From positions 1 through 64,000 of the forward strand of contig UCEU01000026.1 of NCBI GenBank assembly GCA_900471485.1: a stretch of DNA of 64,000 nt, in the 5' to 3' direction. Below are positions 38,628-46,909 of the stretch, one piece after another (positions within the stretch are counted from its first letter, which is position 1; each line of letters opens with the position of its first letter). The position numbers and the translations under genes were made by a program. The stretch comes from Hyphomicrobiales bacterium (lineage in GTDB: Bacteria > Pseudomonadota > Alphaproteobacteria > Rhizobiales > Rhizobiaceae). A model generated the notes under the pieces. That model was not told where the DNA came from. It did not search any database and saw nothing but the letters and a program-made list of their open reading frames with translations.

Positions 38628-38783
38628 GAGATGCTCTTGCTGTTTCCTTGAGTCCGATCATCTTAGCCGCAAAAGCAAGCGGGGGGAAAGCGTGGAAGGC
38701 GGGGTGGCGGTACGCGCGTTCCGGCATTGCTGCCCTGCGCTGGAAAACTGGCGTTTTCGCGCGCTTTGCGCTATGAGCGCGGC

Positions 38784-39815
38784 ATGACACCATCGCATTT
38801 CTACAAACAGGCGCTCGAAACGAAGCGGCCGGTCTTCGCTGTCGCACCCATGATCGACTGGACGGATAGACATTGCCGTTATTTCCACCGGCAGATCAGC
38901 CGCAATGCGCTGCTCTACACGGAAATGGTCGTGGCCGACGCGATCATTCATGGGCCGCGCGAGCGGTTGCTGTCGTTCGACGCCGCCGAGCATCCGGTGG
39001 CGTTGCAGCTGGGCGGGTCCGATCCGGAGAAGCTGGTGAAGGCGGTGGAGATCGCGGCGCCTTACGGCTACGACGAGATCAATCTCAATGTCGGCTGTCC
39101 CTCGGACCGGGTGCAATCGGGCACCTTCGGGGCCTGCCTTATGTTGACGCCTGATGTCGTGGCGGATTGCATCCGGGCGATGAAGCAGGTCTCTTCGGTG
39201 CCCGTCACTTTCAAGTGCCGGATCGGGGTGGACGAGCAGGAACCGGAAAAGGCTTTGCCCGATCTTCTCGACCGGGTGCTCGACGCCGGCGCCGACGCGA
39301 TCTGGATCCATGCCCGCAAGGCCTGGCTGAAGGGCTTGTCGCCGAAGGAAAACCGCGAGATTCCGCCGCTCGATTACGACATCGTCTACCGCACCAAGCA
39401 GGCACGGCCGGATGTGTTCATCGGCATCAATGGCGGCATCCAGACGCTGGATCAGGCGGAAGAGCATCTGCGGCATGTCGATGGCGTGATGCTCGGGCGG
39501 GCGGCTTATCAGAATGCCGGCGTGCTGGCCGATGTCGATCACCGTTTCTTCAGGGCGGAGGCGCAGGCCTTCGACTGGGCGCTTCTGCGCGACCGGATGA
39601 TGGACTACGCGGCGCGGCACATCGCCGATGGCGGCCGACTGCAGCAGGTGGCGCGGCATATGGTCGGGCTGTTTACCGGGATGCCGGGCGCGCGGCGCTA
39701 CCGGCAGATCCTCTCCACCGATGCGGTGAAGGCCGGGGCCGGGCCGGAGGTGATCGCAGCGGCTTTCGCGGCGGTGGATTTTTCCGGTGTAGTGGAGGAT
39801 GCCGTCAGCGCCTGA
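38784..39815 (+). CDS. dusA: tRNA-dihydrouridine(20/20a) synthase DusA
   Basis: FMN enzyme that reduces uridine 20 (and 20a) of the tRNA D-loop. The 343-residue TIM-barrel protein has AVAPMIDWTDRHCRYFHRQIS near the N-terminus, LQLGGSDPEKL, the active-site cysteine motif INLNVGCPSDRVQSGTFGACLM and the FMN-phosphate site INGGIQTLDQ. The C-terminal helical RNA-binding part includes RHMVGLFTGMPGARRYRQ, typical of the DusA branch. ATG 38784 gives the normal N-terminus; the open frame back to 38727 is ignored. Monocistronic. Confidence 0.95.
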   Translation: MTPSHFYKQALETKRPVFAVAPMIDWTDRHCRYFHRQISRNALLYTEMVVADAIIHGPRERLLSFDAAEHPVALQLGGSDPEKLVKAVEIAAPYGYDEINLNVGCPSDRVQSGTFGACLMLTPDVVADCIRAMKQVSSVPVTFKCRIGVDEQEPEKALPDLLDRVLDAGADAIWIHARKAWLKGLSPKENREIPPLDYDIVYRTKQARPDVFIGINGGIQTLDQAEEHLRHVDGVMLGRAAYQNAGVLADVDHRFFRAEAQAFDWALLRDRMMDYAARHIADGGRLQQVARHMVGLFTGMPGARRYRQILSTDAVKAGAGPEVIAAAFAAVDFSGVVEDAVSA

Positions 39816-40011
39816 CGCCGGTTGCACTGTTGGTCGTGAAAATGGCTGTCGATCCGTTGTTCTCCTTGTCCGGTGCGGTTGAAGGAGAGGTTTCGGCGCT
39901 GCCCTTCATCGCTTGAGCGCATCATCGCATGGTTTCAAGGCGCGGGGACGGGGCGATGGCGGATTTCGCCCGGCGGCGAGGCGAGGGTACCGCCTACCGG
40001 ACCGACCAACG

Positions 40012-40040
40012 AAAAACGGCGCCCCTTGCGGAGCGCCGTT
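40012..40040 (-). terminator. Terminator of the cold-shock gene
   Basis: On the minus strand AACGGCGCTCC, loop GCAA, GGGGCGCCGTT is followed by TTTTC. The stem has about ten pairs and lies 28 bases after the cold-shock gene stop. Confidence 0.8.
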
Positions 40041-40067
40041 CTCATTCCCGCCTAAGCGGAAACGGAA

Positions 40068-40280
40068 TTAGTTGGCCGAGATGTTGACGGCCTTCGGGCC
40101 CTTGCCCATGCGATCCGGCTCGGTGTCGAAGGTAACCTGCTGGCCTTCGCGGAGCGACTGGATGCCGGAAGCCTGGAGAGCGGAGATGTGAACGAAAACG
40201 TCCTTCGCACCGCCATCAGGAGTGATGAAACCAAAACCCTTGTCCTGGTTGAAGAATTTTACGACGCCTTTGGTGGCCAT
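40068..40280 (-). CDS. Cold-shock-domain protein (CspA family)
   Basis: Single cold-shock domain of 70 residues, an RNA/ssDNA chaperone. RNP1 is KGFGFITP and RNP2 is [10 protein letters not shown], both intact. Codon choice is strongly biased, as in highly expressed genes. The ATG at 40280 has AAGGACC upstream; the open frame to 40349 covers the leader. Its message may have a long 5' untranslated region, since no gene lies upstream for over 500 bases. It is followed by a clear terminator. Confidence 0.95.
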
Positions 40281-40808
40281 TGGGATAGGTCCTTTTCCCT
40301 GTAGTCTGTCTGGTATCCACCCCCCCGAAAGGAAATGGACGGCTTTCACTTTCGCGCCCCCTCATCTGAATTCAGCGCGCGAAGGGTCAGTCGAGTAGTT
40401 CACGAACGGGGAAAGAACGTCTACGCACGTGAGGTCCCCCCACGCCACCTTCCCGCGAGAAGGCTCAGCCACATCAGTCCAGTCACCGGCATGCAAATGC
40501 CCGAGTACCGAATTGGTGCCAGTATTCGGAGCAAATTGCAAGCGACATTATTCTCGCATTAGTTCAAGCAAAGCGGGAATGGCCAAAGATTCAAAGACTT
40601 GACGAATGGTAACCTTTGATGACGGCGGCTGTTTCGTTTCCGGATTCCGTACCGGAATGGCACGTCAGGAGTGTTTTTCCGGGCGGAAATGCAATCCGAA
40701 GGACCCAATTTCACGTCCGTGGCGGGCCGGGCACCCTTGGTCGAGATTATTGTCTCCCGGCGGTGACAGGCGAAACTTTGCCGCCCTGCCGTCGCGCCCC
40801 GAAGAATC
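40281..40808. other. Gene-free region upstream of the cold-shock gene
   Basis: 528 bases with no open frame that has coding character on either strand. The part next to the cold-shock gene probably holds its promoter and leader. Nothing else was recognised; small open frames here have poor starts and no family resemblance. Confidence 0.5.
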
Positions 40809-41012
40809 TCACTTCGCTCCGGCGGTGCCGAGCTTGTGCTGGATGATGTCGGCGCTGCCCCGGACATAGGAGACGACAGGCTTGCCGGCGGCGTCGGAGA
40901 CGGCATAGGCGATGATCGAGACGTCTTCCTCATAGGTGGAGACATAGAGCACCTGGGCCGGATTGACGTAGATCGTGTGGTTGTGGGTGTTCCTGAAGCC
41001 GACGAATGCCAT
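40809..41012 (-). CDS. Small hypothetical protein, 67 residues
   Basis: A 67-residue soluble protein beginning MAFVGFRNTHNHTIYVNPAQV, with alternating hydrophobic residues that predict a small beta-rich fold (VLYVSTYEEDVSIIAYAVSD, KPVVSYVRG). No signal peptide, membrane segment or known motif. AGGAG lies seven bases before the ATG, and the start fits well, so it is probably real. It stands alone between the cold-shock gene and another hypothetical gene on the same strand. Function unknown. Confidence 0.65.
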   Translation of the reverse strand: MAFVGFRNTHNHTIYVNPAQVLYVSTYEEDVSIIAYAVSDAAGKPVVSYVRGSADIIQHKLGTAGAK

Positions 41013-41129
41013 TGATGTCTCCTACCGTGTCGCGTGGTGAGATATGCCACGCGGGCGTTGATGCAAGTTTAACGCGCCTGATGGGACAGGGTGGGGATTC
41101 TGGATCCCGATAGCGGGAGTGGTGCTGCA

Positions 41130-41609
41130 TCAGGGCATTGCTTGCCGGTTCTCCTCGTCCGGGGTCTGGAAGACCGGCGGCGCGGCGTCGGCGTCGGCGA
41201 TCAACGCCAGCGAGGCGTCAAGGCAGGCAAGGGCCGCGGCGTCATCGGCAAGGCATTGTCGGGCGATCCAGGCTGCGTTGCCGCGCAGGCGCGGCGTCAG
41301 CGCGTTAAGGAGTTCGAACAGCGGCCCGTGTTCGCCGTCGCGGGCGTCCGCGCAGAGGGTCGCGGCCCAGCCGAGATAGTCGCTGTAGCAAGGCGTGAAT
41401 TCCTGAGGCAGCGTCGGGACGCAGACGGGCAGATACCGCGCCGGGCCGATCCGCAGGCAGGCGCGGGCGCGGCGGCAGCGGCGGACGGGGCAGGTCTCCT
41501 GCGGCAGATACATCATCTCCGCGGTCCGCGCGGCCAGATCGCGGATCCGGTCACGGCCGAGGCGGGCAAGGAGTATGTTTTCCGGTTGGTCGTCAGGCTG
41601 CTGCGGCAT
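41130..41609 (-). CDS. Hypothetical protein with N-terminal cysteine cluster
   Basis: A 159-residue protein not recognised as a named family. The first 90 residues contain six cysteines (40, 45, 51, 63, 74, 86), in a C-x4-C-x5-C-x11-C arrangement around ETCPVRRCRRARACLRIGPARYLPVC, which could bind zinc or an iron-sulfur cluster. The C-terminal half is helical and Ala-rich (NAAWIARQCLADDAAALACLDASLALIADAD). A GGAGAGG sequence precedes the ATG at 41609. There is no signal peptide. It borders the AT-rich foreign patch. Confidence 0.6.
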   Translation of the reverse strand: MPQQPDDQPENILLARLGRDRIRDLAARTAEMMYLPQETCPVRRCRRARACLRIGPARYLPVCVPTLPQEFTPCYSDYLGWAATLCADARDGEHGPLFELLNALTPRLRGNAAWIARQCLADDAAALACLDASLALIADADAAPPVFQTPDEENRQAMP

Positions 41610-42290
41610 TGCGGTCCTCTCCGGTTCGTGAGCTGGATCCGGGCGCGCGGCAAGGCCGTCACGCGGCTGATGTCACCCGTGGTTTGATCCTGCACTGCTG
41701 GCGCCGACCCCGAGGGGCGGCAATTCGGACGGGGCGCTCGAAAGAACCTCATCAAAAACTATAAATACTGGCGCTTCCGGCGCCCCGTTCGGCGGTTTAT
41801 GCCCGAACTCCGGTCCCTCTGCAGCCGTCTTTCAAACTTCGCGACGGCGTTGTGTGCCTCACAGGCACGTCCAGGGCACTCCGACGGACAAGGCGCGCAA
41901 GCGCGATGGTCCGCCAGCCCCGGAGGGAGACCATTTTCGCGGACCCGGTGAGTGAGGTTTTGCGTCCTACCCTCACGCCCCGCGCCGGTCCTGCCTCGCC
42001 GGCACGCCTGCCGGTGTATCCGATGACGGAACGAGGGGATGATGGCATGGGTTTTGTGGGCGGGGAAAATTTGGGGGAGAGAATTTTCGCTGTTAAGGCG
42101 GCCGAGCAATTATCCGAGCGATACAATTACGTTCTCTGGATGGCCTGCGGGAACAGATTGGATAACCAAGTGGCTGAGGATCACAAATATAATCTTGTAG
42201 ATTAAAAGCCGGTTACGTTCTTCTGAGTTGCAATATTATCGATTCTCACCTTAGGATCGTCCCGAAGTATAGTTTTACCGGATTGCTAAT
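41610..42290. other. Gene-free, repeat-like stretch bordering the AT-rich gene
   Basis: 681 bases with no convincing gene. The left two thirds are GC-rich with short inverted repeats, for example CCGGCA-N4-TGCCGG at 41999-42014, and have the look of dispersed rhizobial intergenic repeats. From about 42050 the sequence becomes AT-rich and leads into the 460-codon gene, where its promoter should lie. A plus-strand open frame at 41852-42205 crosses the repeat and has no coding character. Confidence 0.5.
41860..42060. repeat. Candidate dispersed intergenic repeat
   Basis: A GC-rich block with several imperfect inverted repeats (GCGCAAGCGC near 41893, CCGGCA-N4-TGCCGG at 41999-42014) that is out of keeping with both neighbouring genes. 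It resembles RIME-type mosaic repeats of rhizobia in size and character, but the family cannot be confirmed without comparison to other copies. Confidence 0.35.
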
Positions 42291-43673
42291 ATGTCTTCGG
42301 AACTCTCTGCGTTGCCCGATAGCCTAAATTTAACGGCGATACAAACCAGCCAGCCGAGCGATATGCCGGTAGCAAAGAACATTGATATAAGTTTCTTTTC
42401 TCATCGTGGAAGAAAGTCAACACAACTTGTCGGTAATGCTGAGGAACGGAGCTTTATCAAGGCACGCCGTGAGTGGATGGATTTTGATTTCAATGAAGTC
42501 ATCTACGTAACAAGTATCGACGTGTACGCAACCGGTTATGAAATATATCACGAGCTCGAAATGAGCTACGAGGATTTTCTTTCTAAATCCGTAAACAGCG
42601 AGAAAGTCAGGTTCGACGGAGCGGTCTTCCGTTTCAAACTGAATAGATTTGTGGGCGGATTTGGCCTTCGGCCGAGCGATAGTTGGTTTAAGGACTCCAA
42701 GCTAACGCGCATTGAGGTTTCGGGTGTCGAGCAGAAACACTTTTCAGAAGTCACCGCAATATTTCATAATTTAAATAAAGAGAAAGAAAAAATCGAGATA
42801 TATTTAAATCAGTATCTTGAGAGGGCGCGGGTCGCTGAAGCGAAGCGGCACGAAGTAACGGCCGAAATAGAGACTTTGGAGGCCGAAATTGATAGCGCAA
42901 ATGCGGAATTATCTAAGCTGACTGCGGAAGTGGACGGCCACAGTAAGGATTTGGAGAGTGTAAAGAAGCAGGTGGCGATAGCTGAGGCGGTTAAGCGTAA
43001 TATAGACGAGCAAACCCAGATTGCCAAAAATAACAACGATGTTATGGCGGGTAACTCTGAAAAACTTGCAATTGATATATCCAATAAAGAAAACAAGCTT
43101 CGGTCATTGGAGAATGATATAAATCTCTTTCCAACGGAGATTGCTGGATATGTTACTCAGGGTTCAAAGAACGTATCCCTATATTGGAAGCTGTGCGCAA
43201 TACCATTGGTCGTCATTGCGGTCGTCACGTTTCGTTTGTTTATGAACTCGGAAAAAATACTAAATTACGTATATCAAGAAAACTTTAGTATAGTGGAGTT
43301 TCTAATATCTAGAGTGCCGTACGTAGCCGTCTCAACCGTCATTCTGGCGGTTTGCTATACGCTGCTGCATAGGCTGATAACCGAGATCATCGGGATTAAT
43401 CGGCGAAGACAAGACCTGTTTAAGGTTAGCATTATTGCTACAGATATTTCGTACGCGTCTCAGACTGGTTTAGAGCTGTCAGATGCAGATAGATATAACC
43501 TTAGAACGCAGACCAAGATGGAGCTTTTGAAGGAGCACCTCAAGCAACATATTAGCGAAGAATATATTTACAGTCCTAAATCAAGTCTAGTTCATAAAGT
43601 TAGTACGATTGTCGCAAGCGCTATCGCTGATGACGAAAAAGAAGCCACACCTGGCGCGTCTCCTTCTCAATAA
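42291..43673 (+). CDS. AT-rich orphan: membrane-anchored coiled-coil protein
   Basis: A 460-residue protein not recognised as a known family. Residues about 30-147 look like a beta-rich domain, possibly galactose-binding/discoidin-like (EWMDFDFNEVIYVTSIDVYA). Residues about 150-285 are a long coiled coil (EAKRHEVTAEIETLEAEIDS and onward). Two transmembrane segments follow at about 298-317 and 338-360, then a 100-residue soluble C-terminus. With no signal peptide, both ends probably lie in the cytoplasm. Base composition and codon use (many ATA, AAT and AAA codons) differ sharply from all neighbours, pointing to horizontal transfer. It stands alone, with a repeat-rich region on its left and uvrB converging on its right. 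Confidence 0.85.
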   Translation: MSSELSALPDSLNLTAIQTSQPSDMPVAKNIDISFFSHRGRKSTQLVGNAEERSFIKARREWMDFDFNEVIYVTSIDVYATGYEIYHELEMSYEDFLSKSVNSEKVRFDGAVFRFKLNRFVGGFGLRPSDSWFKDSKLTRIEVSGVEQKHFSEVTAIFHNLNKEKEKIEIYLNQYLERARVAEAKRHEVTAEIETLEAEIDSANAELSKLTAEVDGHSKDLESVKKQVAIAEAVKRNIDEQTQIAKNNNDVMAGNSEKLAIDISNKENKLRSLENDINLFPTEIAGYVTQGSKNVSLYWKLCAIPLVVIAVVTFRLFMNSEKILNYVYQENFSIVEFLISRVPYVAVSTVILAVCYTLLHRLITEIIGINRRRQDLFKVSIIATDISYASQTGLELSDADRYNLRTQTKMELLKEHLKQHISEEYIYSPKSSLVHKVSTIVASAIADDEKEATPGASPSQ

Positions 43674-43721
43674 AATCAGATCTTCGCAGCAACTGCGCTT
43701 CTGGCAAGGTGGGGCCGCCAC

Positions 43722-46664
<2,943 letters not shown>

Positions 46665-46909
46665 GGCCGGAATATGGAGAGAGTCAGCGCGAAATGGAAG
46701 AGGCAAAGAGTACAAAAGGGAAACGGATTTTCGCAGCCTGGAGGCGCGATAGCGTGGCGATCACGCAAAACGTGATGGAACAAGGGCAGCATGGCTGACG
46801 TTCCCGAATGCTGCCTGTCACAGCACCACCCGCGCCCGCCCGGGCGATCCCTCTCTTCGACGGCATCCGGACTTTGCCCGCCTCGCCGCCGCTTTCGGAC
46901 GGAGGAACA

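Follow-up and report, generated by a model that had tools for sequence, protein, structure and literature searches.

Genomic context of the gene

The window analyzed here is a 64-kb stretch of DNA from a member of the Rhizobiaceae. One of its genes encodes a 460-aa protein and is arranged tail to tail with uvrB, with 48 bp between the two stop codons (Table 1). The coordinates, plus strand and length previously given for this gene were correct. It also departs from its surroundings in composition, as the earlier note on this DNA had claimed. Its GC content is 0.433 (GC3 0.47) in a window of about 62% GC, and other stretches of 1383 bp, the gene itself excluded, have a mean GC of 0.624 with a standard deviation of 0.026, so that the gene lies about 7 standard deviations below the mean. 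It is the sole ORF of at least 150 aa with less than 50% GC in the window; here and throughout, ORFs were called by our own longest-ORF script rather than by a trained gene finder.

Repeat-like DNA, previously described as flanking the gene, is present on one side and not on both. Elsewhere in the genome, the segment 41740-42110 of the window recurs as two long copies (90% and 89%) and as five short pieces. A promoter scan gave four sites against 2.0 expected, none of them directly upstream of the 460-aa gene, and a terminator scan gave no excess. The Rfam scan of window positions 40000-45000 returned nothing except a sub-threshold match to the cspA thermoregulator (RF01766; 40011-40377, minus strand; 61.5 bits vs. 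a gathering threshold of 78), which overlaps the cold-shock gene.

Table 1. Features of the window and of the encoded protein, and contents of the slot downstream of uvrB in relatives (L numbers denote loci).
Feature	Residues	Position	Strand	Basis
Candidate defence gene, 460-aa coiled-coil membrane protein		window 42291..43673	+	ATG start, GC 43%
Beta-sandwich, galactose-binding-like/F5-8C fold, predicted cytosolic sensor (putative role)	28-147	42372..42731	+	AlphaFold2, Foldseek, VIA-align
Long coiled coil	148-277	42732..43121	+	AlphaFold2, periodicity
Predicted transmembrane helix 1, conserved NLFP motif (residues 278-281) ahead	294-320	43170..43250	+	
Predicted transmembrane helix 2, conserved SR-PYV	334-369	43290..43397	+	
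Tail, best-conserved part	366-420	43386..43550	+	
uvrB, core gene bounding the slot		43722..46715	-	Pfam UvrB domains
Slot downstream of uvrB in the window		41610-43721		
Dispersed repeat, far side of slot		41770..42075	.	
Small flanking ORF, family unassigned		41130..41609	-	no Pfam match
Cold-shock protein gene, far side of slot		40068..40349	-	Pfam CSD
Dihydrouridine synthase (dusA-like) gene, far side of slot		38727..39815	+	Pfam Dus
Retron II-A		slot L114, L139		PADLOC
Retron III-A		slot L151, L155		PADLOC
Retron XII		slot L148		PADLOC
DRT UG21 with RTasSLATT		slot L108		PADLOC
HEC-01		slot L116		PADLOC
dCTP deaminase type		slot L124, L142		PADLOC
SIR2 paired with ParA-like ATPase, two genera		slot L104:2203-4266, L137:1496-3345		PADLOC for SIR2
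NsnA-like		slot L132		PADLOC
PDC-S33		slot L133		PADLOC
Common methyltransferase and DpdB-like gene		slot L117		PADLOC
Weak restriction enzyme match, E 1.4e-6		slot L119		PADLOC
AIPR		slot L102		Pfam
OLD-like TOPRIM		slot L147		Pfam

Domain architecture and predicted fold

The order of parts previously read from the sequence, a beta-rich domain followed by a coiled coil, a membrane hairpin and a tail, is reproduced by AlphaFold2, hydropathy and a 3.5-residue periodicity. The whole-protein AlphaFold2 model was built from the window protein aligned to seven relatives and is of low confidence (mean pLDDT only 67.6, pTM 0.34); it places strands at residues 63-147, a single long helix at 148-277, helices at 280-329 and 334-392, and then the tail helices. 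The hydrophobic periodicity of residues 148-277 at 3.5 residues is 14.4, vs. a 95% point of 9.4 and a maximum of 16.1 in 2000 shuffles. Hydropathy peaks at about residues 294-320 and 334-369. No earlier hydrophobic peak is seen in the protein, which disfavours a signal peptide, in line with the absence of one claimed before. The motif NRRRQ after the second helix suggests an N-in/C-in topology.

When residues 1-165 were modelled alone, the model reached pTM 0.69 and pLDDT 72.3. The structure search proposed earlier for the N-terminal domain, made with Foldseek, found the galactose-binding-like/F5-8C fold. In VIA-align comparisons the closest structures included IFT25 (2yc2_A; Z 11.3, rmsd 3.3, 115 residues), with Z 11.2-11.4, rmsd 3.1-3.3 and 111-116 residues across alignments to 2yc2_A and 2yc4_A. 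BIRC6, the HERC2 DOC domain and APC10/Doc1 were matched as well, and many CBM32 domains at Z about 10. The predicted fold of residues 28-147 is thus the galactose-binding-like/F5-8C jelly roll, which leaves the ligand unspecified. The domain resembles discoidin, CBM32, DOC and IFT25 in this predicted fold; unlike known F5-8 type C domains, to which it shows about 10% identity, it is predicted to be cytosolic and is joined by a coiled coil to a membrane hairpin.

Conservation differs strongly between the parts. Among eight near relatives, the tail (residues 366-420) has a mean pairwise identity of 71%, the hairpin of 54%, the beta domain of 51% and the coiled coil (residues 148-276) of 26%. Besides NLFP and SR-PYV, INRRRQ and KMELLKEHL are conserved. 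We infer that the membrane part and the tail may form the acting end, with the coiled coil as a spacer. Two transmembrane helices and a helical cytosolic tail as the likely effector are also the arrangement of SLATT effectors, and RTasSLATT itself occurs in one of the slots (L108). No relation was found at the sequence level: no SLATT model is among the 14 Pfam matches at E<=1, and hhalign gave a probability of 0.2 against a single RTasSLATT sequence.

Library searches with the 460-aa protein mainly returned its coiled coil. Pfam and NCBIfam gave nothing beyond it, so membership in a housekeeping family was rejected. None of the 14 Pfam matches begins before residue 140, and no galactose-binding-like profile is among them. 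PADLOC-DB 2.0.0 likewise gave 14 matches at E<=1, with the best stretches all within residues 147-290 and none outside the coiled coil. Matches to PHROGs were also to the coiled coil, that to phrog_1775 (minor head protein, E 7.8e-6) extending to residue 370, and neither the N- nor the C-terminal piece had a match when searched alone. Among PDB sequences, none matched a profile of the beta domain at E<=10, and the best 60 of 126 matches to the whole protein are mostly to coiled-coil stretches. In this respect the protein is a specific new candidate for phage defence: neither its N-terminal domain nor its membrane part, whether scanned alone or taken as the best-matching stretch, matches a family of PADLOC, Pfam, NCBIfam or PHROGs, except that one PHROGs coiled-coil match runs into the membrane part. 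A literature search for exclusion or discoidin-type defence proteins found nothing relevant among the papers listed.

Distribution of homologues

The gene had been called an orphan, a description that has to be dropped. A contig search recovered seven relatives with 33-57% identity, from Rhizobium sp. LCM 4573, two Shinella, Peteryoungia, Kaistia, Aquamicrobium and Motiliproteus, and a further homologue is carried by phage phi2LM21. In the genus survey the gene was found in one of 148 genomes, namely that of the window, and in the family survey in 4 of 297; draws from the phylum and the class gave 5 of 398 and 1 of 385 genomes (all four counts include the genome of the window, and the draws overlap). 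Sixty-eight other matches in the genus were set aside, scoring at most 28.4 bits vs. 718.5 and all falling on profile columns within 149-278, the coiled coil. These low counts characterize a rare, scattered accessory gene. Close orthologues at the same site in most Rhizobiaceae, with composition matching that of their genomes, were not found in the family survey, and the copies that do occupy the site are AT-rich.

With the C-terminal half as query, 6 of 329 genomes were positive. This search also addressed a C-terminal module attached to other N-terminal domains. It yielded one new case, a protein with a divergent N-terminal part (G675, locus L212); as this part may share the same fold, we do not regard it as a clear domain swap. 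Among 50,697 phage records the phi2LM21 protein is the only one related to the window protein, with 46% identity across 95% of the query. Plasmids gave no match to the window protein or to three distant homologues; two of these four queries were used on the phage set, with phi2LM21 as the sole result. IMG/VR gave none with peptide patterns that reach close relatives only.

Neighbourhoods away from uvrB

In phi2LM21 the homologue (ATE84674.1, p57; MF614627.1 37747-39126, L009:19965-21344) lies between a holin-like and an SRAP gene. Several bacterial copies are found near genes of mobility or defence. The Motiliproteus copy (L008) comes immediately after a phage integrase and is followed by a small ORF, the Hachiman genes HamA (E 7e-154) and HamB (E 3e-254), and a PDC-S31 gene. 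The G329 copy (L038) comes immediately after an integrase-like gene with the N-terminal SAM domain only, and a ThsB-type TIR gene lies 1.7 kb on; that TIR protein and the product of the next gene have no PADLOC match. Neighbours of the G757 copy (L043) show moderate matches to the SIR2-pAgo (E 3e-14) and PDC-M28B (E 3e-8) profiles. The G488 copy (L042), split into two ORF pieces, is near a dGTPase-type gene (E 1e-37), and the G707 copy (L041) adjoins a resolvase-type recombinase, two further neighbours having no PADLOC match. The distant homologue of G675 (L212:8337-10345) follows an integrase piece. It adjoins what by eye resembles a prophage of the tailless, corticovirus-like kind, whose putative packaging ATPase has no Pfam match. 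In G269 the homologue is present as two pieces at contig ends.

The recurrent location in defence islands that had been named as support for a defence role is therefore seen in part. It holds for the uvrB slot described below and for those copies near integrases, Hachiman, dGTPase-type and ThsB-type TIR genes. It does not hold for the Kaistia, Aquamicrobium and G219 copies (L006, L007, L037), beside which no mobile or defence gene is obvious by eye within the stretch covered; the G219 copy sits after carB.

The site downstream of uvrB

In the Rhizobium, two Shinella and Peteryoungia loci (L002-L005), the gene is again arranged tail to tail with uvrB and has a GC content of 0.37-0.43. We compared the same place in 60 other genomes: from the genus, all 29 further genomes in which uvrB was found, and from outside it 31 of 57, taken with the best UvrB matches first; four genomes were skipped because of nearby contig ends or a stop in uvrB. 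The 460-aa gene had no match in these 60 regions. An AT-rich ORF (at least 150 aa, less than 50% GC) is present within 7 kb downstream of uvrB in 25 of the 60. Within the genus these are 13 of 29 genomes, and among the other family members 12 of 31. Nine of the downstream stretches are shorter than 7 kb. The upstream side was taken from 40 of the 60 genomes, one of which (G070) was too short and was dropped. In the remaining 39, AT-rich ORFs are found downstream in 20 and upstream in 3 (Fisher p 4e-5, relatedness ignored).

Many of these inserts match named defence families (Table 1). PADLOC was applied to 30 of the 49 AT-rich slot proteins, from 20 of the 25 loci, picked after inspection rather than at random. 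At E<=1e-5, 22 of the 30 proteins and 15 of the 20 loci had a match; the five loci with none are L106, L126 (one of its four proteins scanned), L129, L131 and L134. For the other loci (L102, L103, L105, L135 and L147) the comparison was with Pfam alone and covered one of the two proteins at L105 and at L147. Ten control proteins, consisting of four high-GC and three AT-rich proteins from upstream of uvrB and three from the window, gave a single match (PDC-M28B), to an AT-rich ORF upstream of uvrB. The excess of AT-rich ORFs downstream, together with the PADLOC matches, indicates that this group of Rhizobiaceae probably has a defence hotspot just past uvrB. In the L102 genome, a UvrB fragment is 100% identical (rounded) to that of the window over the 300 aa compared.

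A site of this kind has a precedent in cDHS1/2 of Pseudomonas aeruginosa, described as fixed places set by core genes that carry many immune systems, where unknown genes can prove to be new systems, Shango being one that was reported (PMC10250203). The uvrB slot is similarly a fixed site at a core gene with varied defence genes; it differs in lying at uvrB in a group of Rhizobiaceae, here sampled by 60 genomes, and in holding inserts of mostly 1-3 kb. No defence hotspot at uvrB or in rhizobia was found among the best-matching papers, including PMC12429752.

How the slot is filled can be addressed from a repeat and a tree. At 8 of 64 loci searched (L002, L003, L004, L108, L128, L132, L134 and L137), of which L128 has no AT-rich insert, the dispersed repeat lies 1.5-3.1 kb past uvrB, its side and orientation being the same at each. 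None was found in 40 stretches upstream of uvrB. Our guess is that the repeat may help exchange at the slot. In the tree the five copies at the uvrB site form a cluster of weak support (67/96), and several long branches disturb the topology. These copies may derive from one old arrival followed by many losses, or from repeated exchange at the slot.

Possible function and alternative explanations

The analysis sustains the earlier description of a foreign, lone, membrane-anchored coiled-coil protein. Because the gene occupies a slot where relatives hold virus-defence genes, it probably encodes a new single-gene phage-defence protein, which we treat as a candidate. The idea of single-gene defence raised in the earlier note is thereby strengthened as to location, PADLOC-named defence proteins being found in the same slot in relatives; this support is positional rather than functional. 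We consider it fairly probable that the gene was acquired horizontally as single-gene anti-phage cargo, that its site just past uvrB is a defence hotspot, and that it works by a membrane mechanism as follows. The protein would be anchored in the inner membrane, its head and tail both facing the cytosol, and the coiled coil would make it an oligomer. The galactose-binding-like head would sense something made or delivered by the phage during infection, the coiled coil would relay this signal to the two helices of the hairpin and to the conserved tail, and these would open or disturb the inner membrane. Phage growth would then be halted (abortive infection) or DNA entry blocked (superinfection exclusion). 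Composition, predicted parts, rarity, scattered occurrence, the phage and integrase contexts and the hotspot are what the analysis shows; oligomer, topology, ligand, membrane action and defence function are inferred. The best reading is a candidate single-gene cargo, anti-phage or superinfection-exclusion, that acts at the inner membrane.

A rival explanation starts from a phage origin. The gene could be a single-gene remnant of a prophage, encoding a superinfection-exclusion protein that keeps related phages from entering at the inner membrane while the cell survives. The homologue in the temperate phage phi2LM21 lies outside the structural genes, as such a protein might, and the copies that immediately follow an integrase (L008) or integrase-like gene (L038), or else a piece of an integrase (L212), point the same way. 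However, by eye no phage genes accompany the copies at the uvrB site. Small exclusion proteins usually have neither a large cytosolic head nor a long coiled coil, and in both respects the protein exceeds them. We regard this origin as rather unlikely. The position after a holin-like gene in phi2LM21 could also suggest an accessory gene of prophage lysis or lysogeny, for instance a holin regulator, with no part in defence; but the bacterial copies examined show no visible lysis genes, five of them being beside uvrB and others alone or by defence genes, which makes such a role very unlikely.

Least probable, in our estimate, is a physiological gene of the host, serving membrane stress, the envelope or chromosome anchoring, that is old in Rhizobiaceae, evolves fast and has often been lost, its low GC having some other cause. 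The shared site in the genus of the window, Rhizobium, two Shinella and Peteryoungia would fit such a gene, as would the weakly supported cluster of the five site copies. Against it, the search cut-offs left 147 of 148 genomes of the genus and 293 of 297 of the family without the gene, copies occur in a phage and beside an integrase with Hachiman, and the contents of the slot differ between genomes.

The reading as acquired anti-phage cargo can be carried further, although here our confidence is tentative and leans toward doubt. The protein might found a new single-gene anti-phage family. Its discoidin-like domain, in the cytosol, would detect a phage-made ligand, whether sugar-bearing or of another kind (e.g., a modified nucleotide or a phage DNA mark), and through the coiled coil would open a two-helix membrane pore. 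In Rhizobiaceae, uvrB would mark a defence hotspot, and the remaining unassigned genes there would be new systems as well.

Other genes of the slot and annotation of the phage homologue

More widely useful than the single candidate is the site itself, a short, fixed place beside a core gene of Rhizobiaceae where defence genes come and go. Genes between uvrB and the cold-shock and dus genes can be read as candidate defence genes. At L106, L131, L134 and L135 the AT-rich slot genes are unmatched in the libraries used for each (for L135, Pfam only), and they are further candidates. At two loci (L103:1364-3985 and L126:6924-9617) a similar block of four genes occupies the slot, encoding a protein of about 225 aa, a PF14350 'Beta protein', an IrrE-like peptidase and, by eye, a small membrane protein. 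This block is possibly a new system.

The phi2LM21 homologue p57 is labelled 'ATP-dependent DNA ligase' in its record, though it is a homologue of the coiled-coil membrane protein. The paper on this phage assigns the ligase to p65, and its main text does not mention p57 under its locus tag (PMC5537653).
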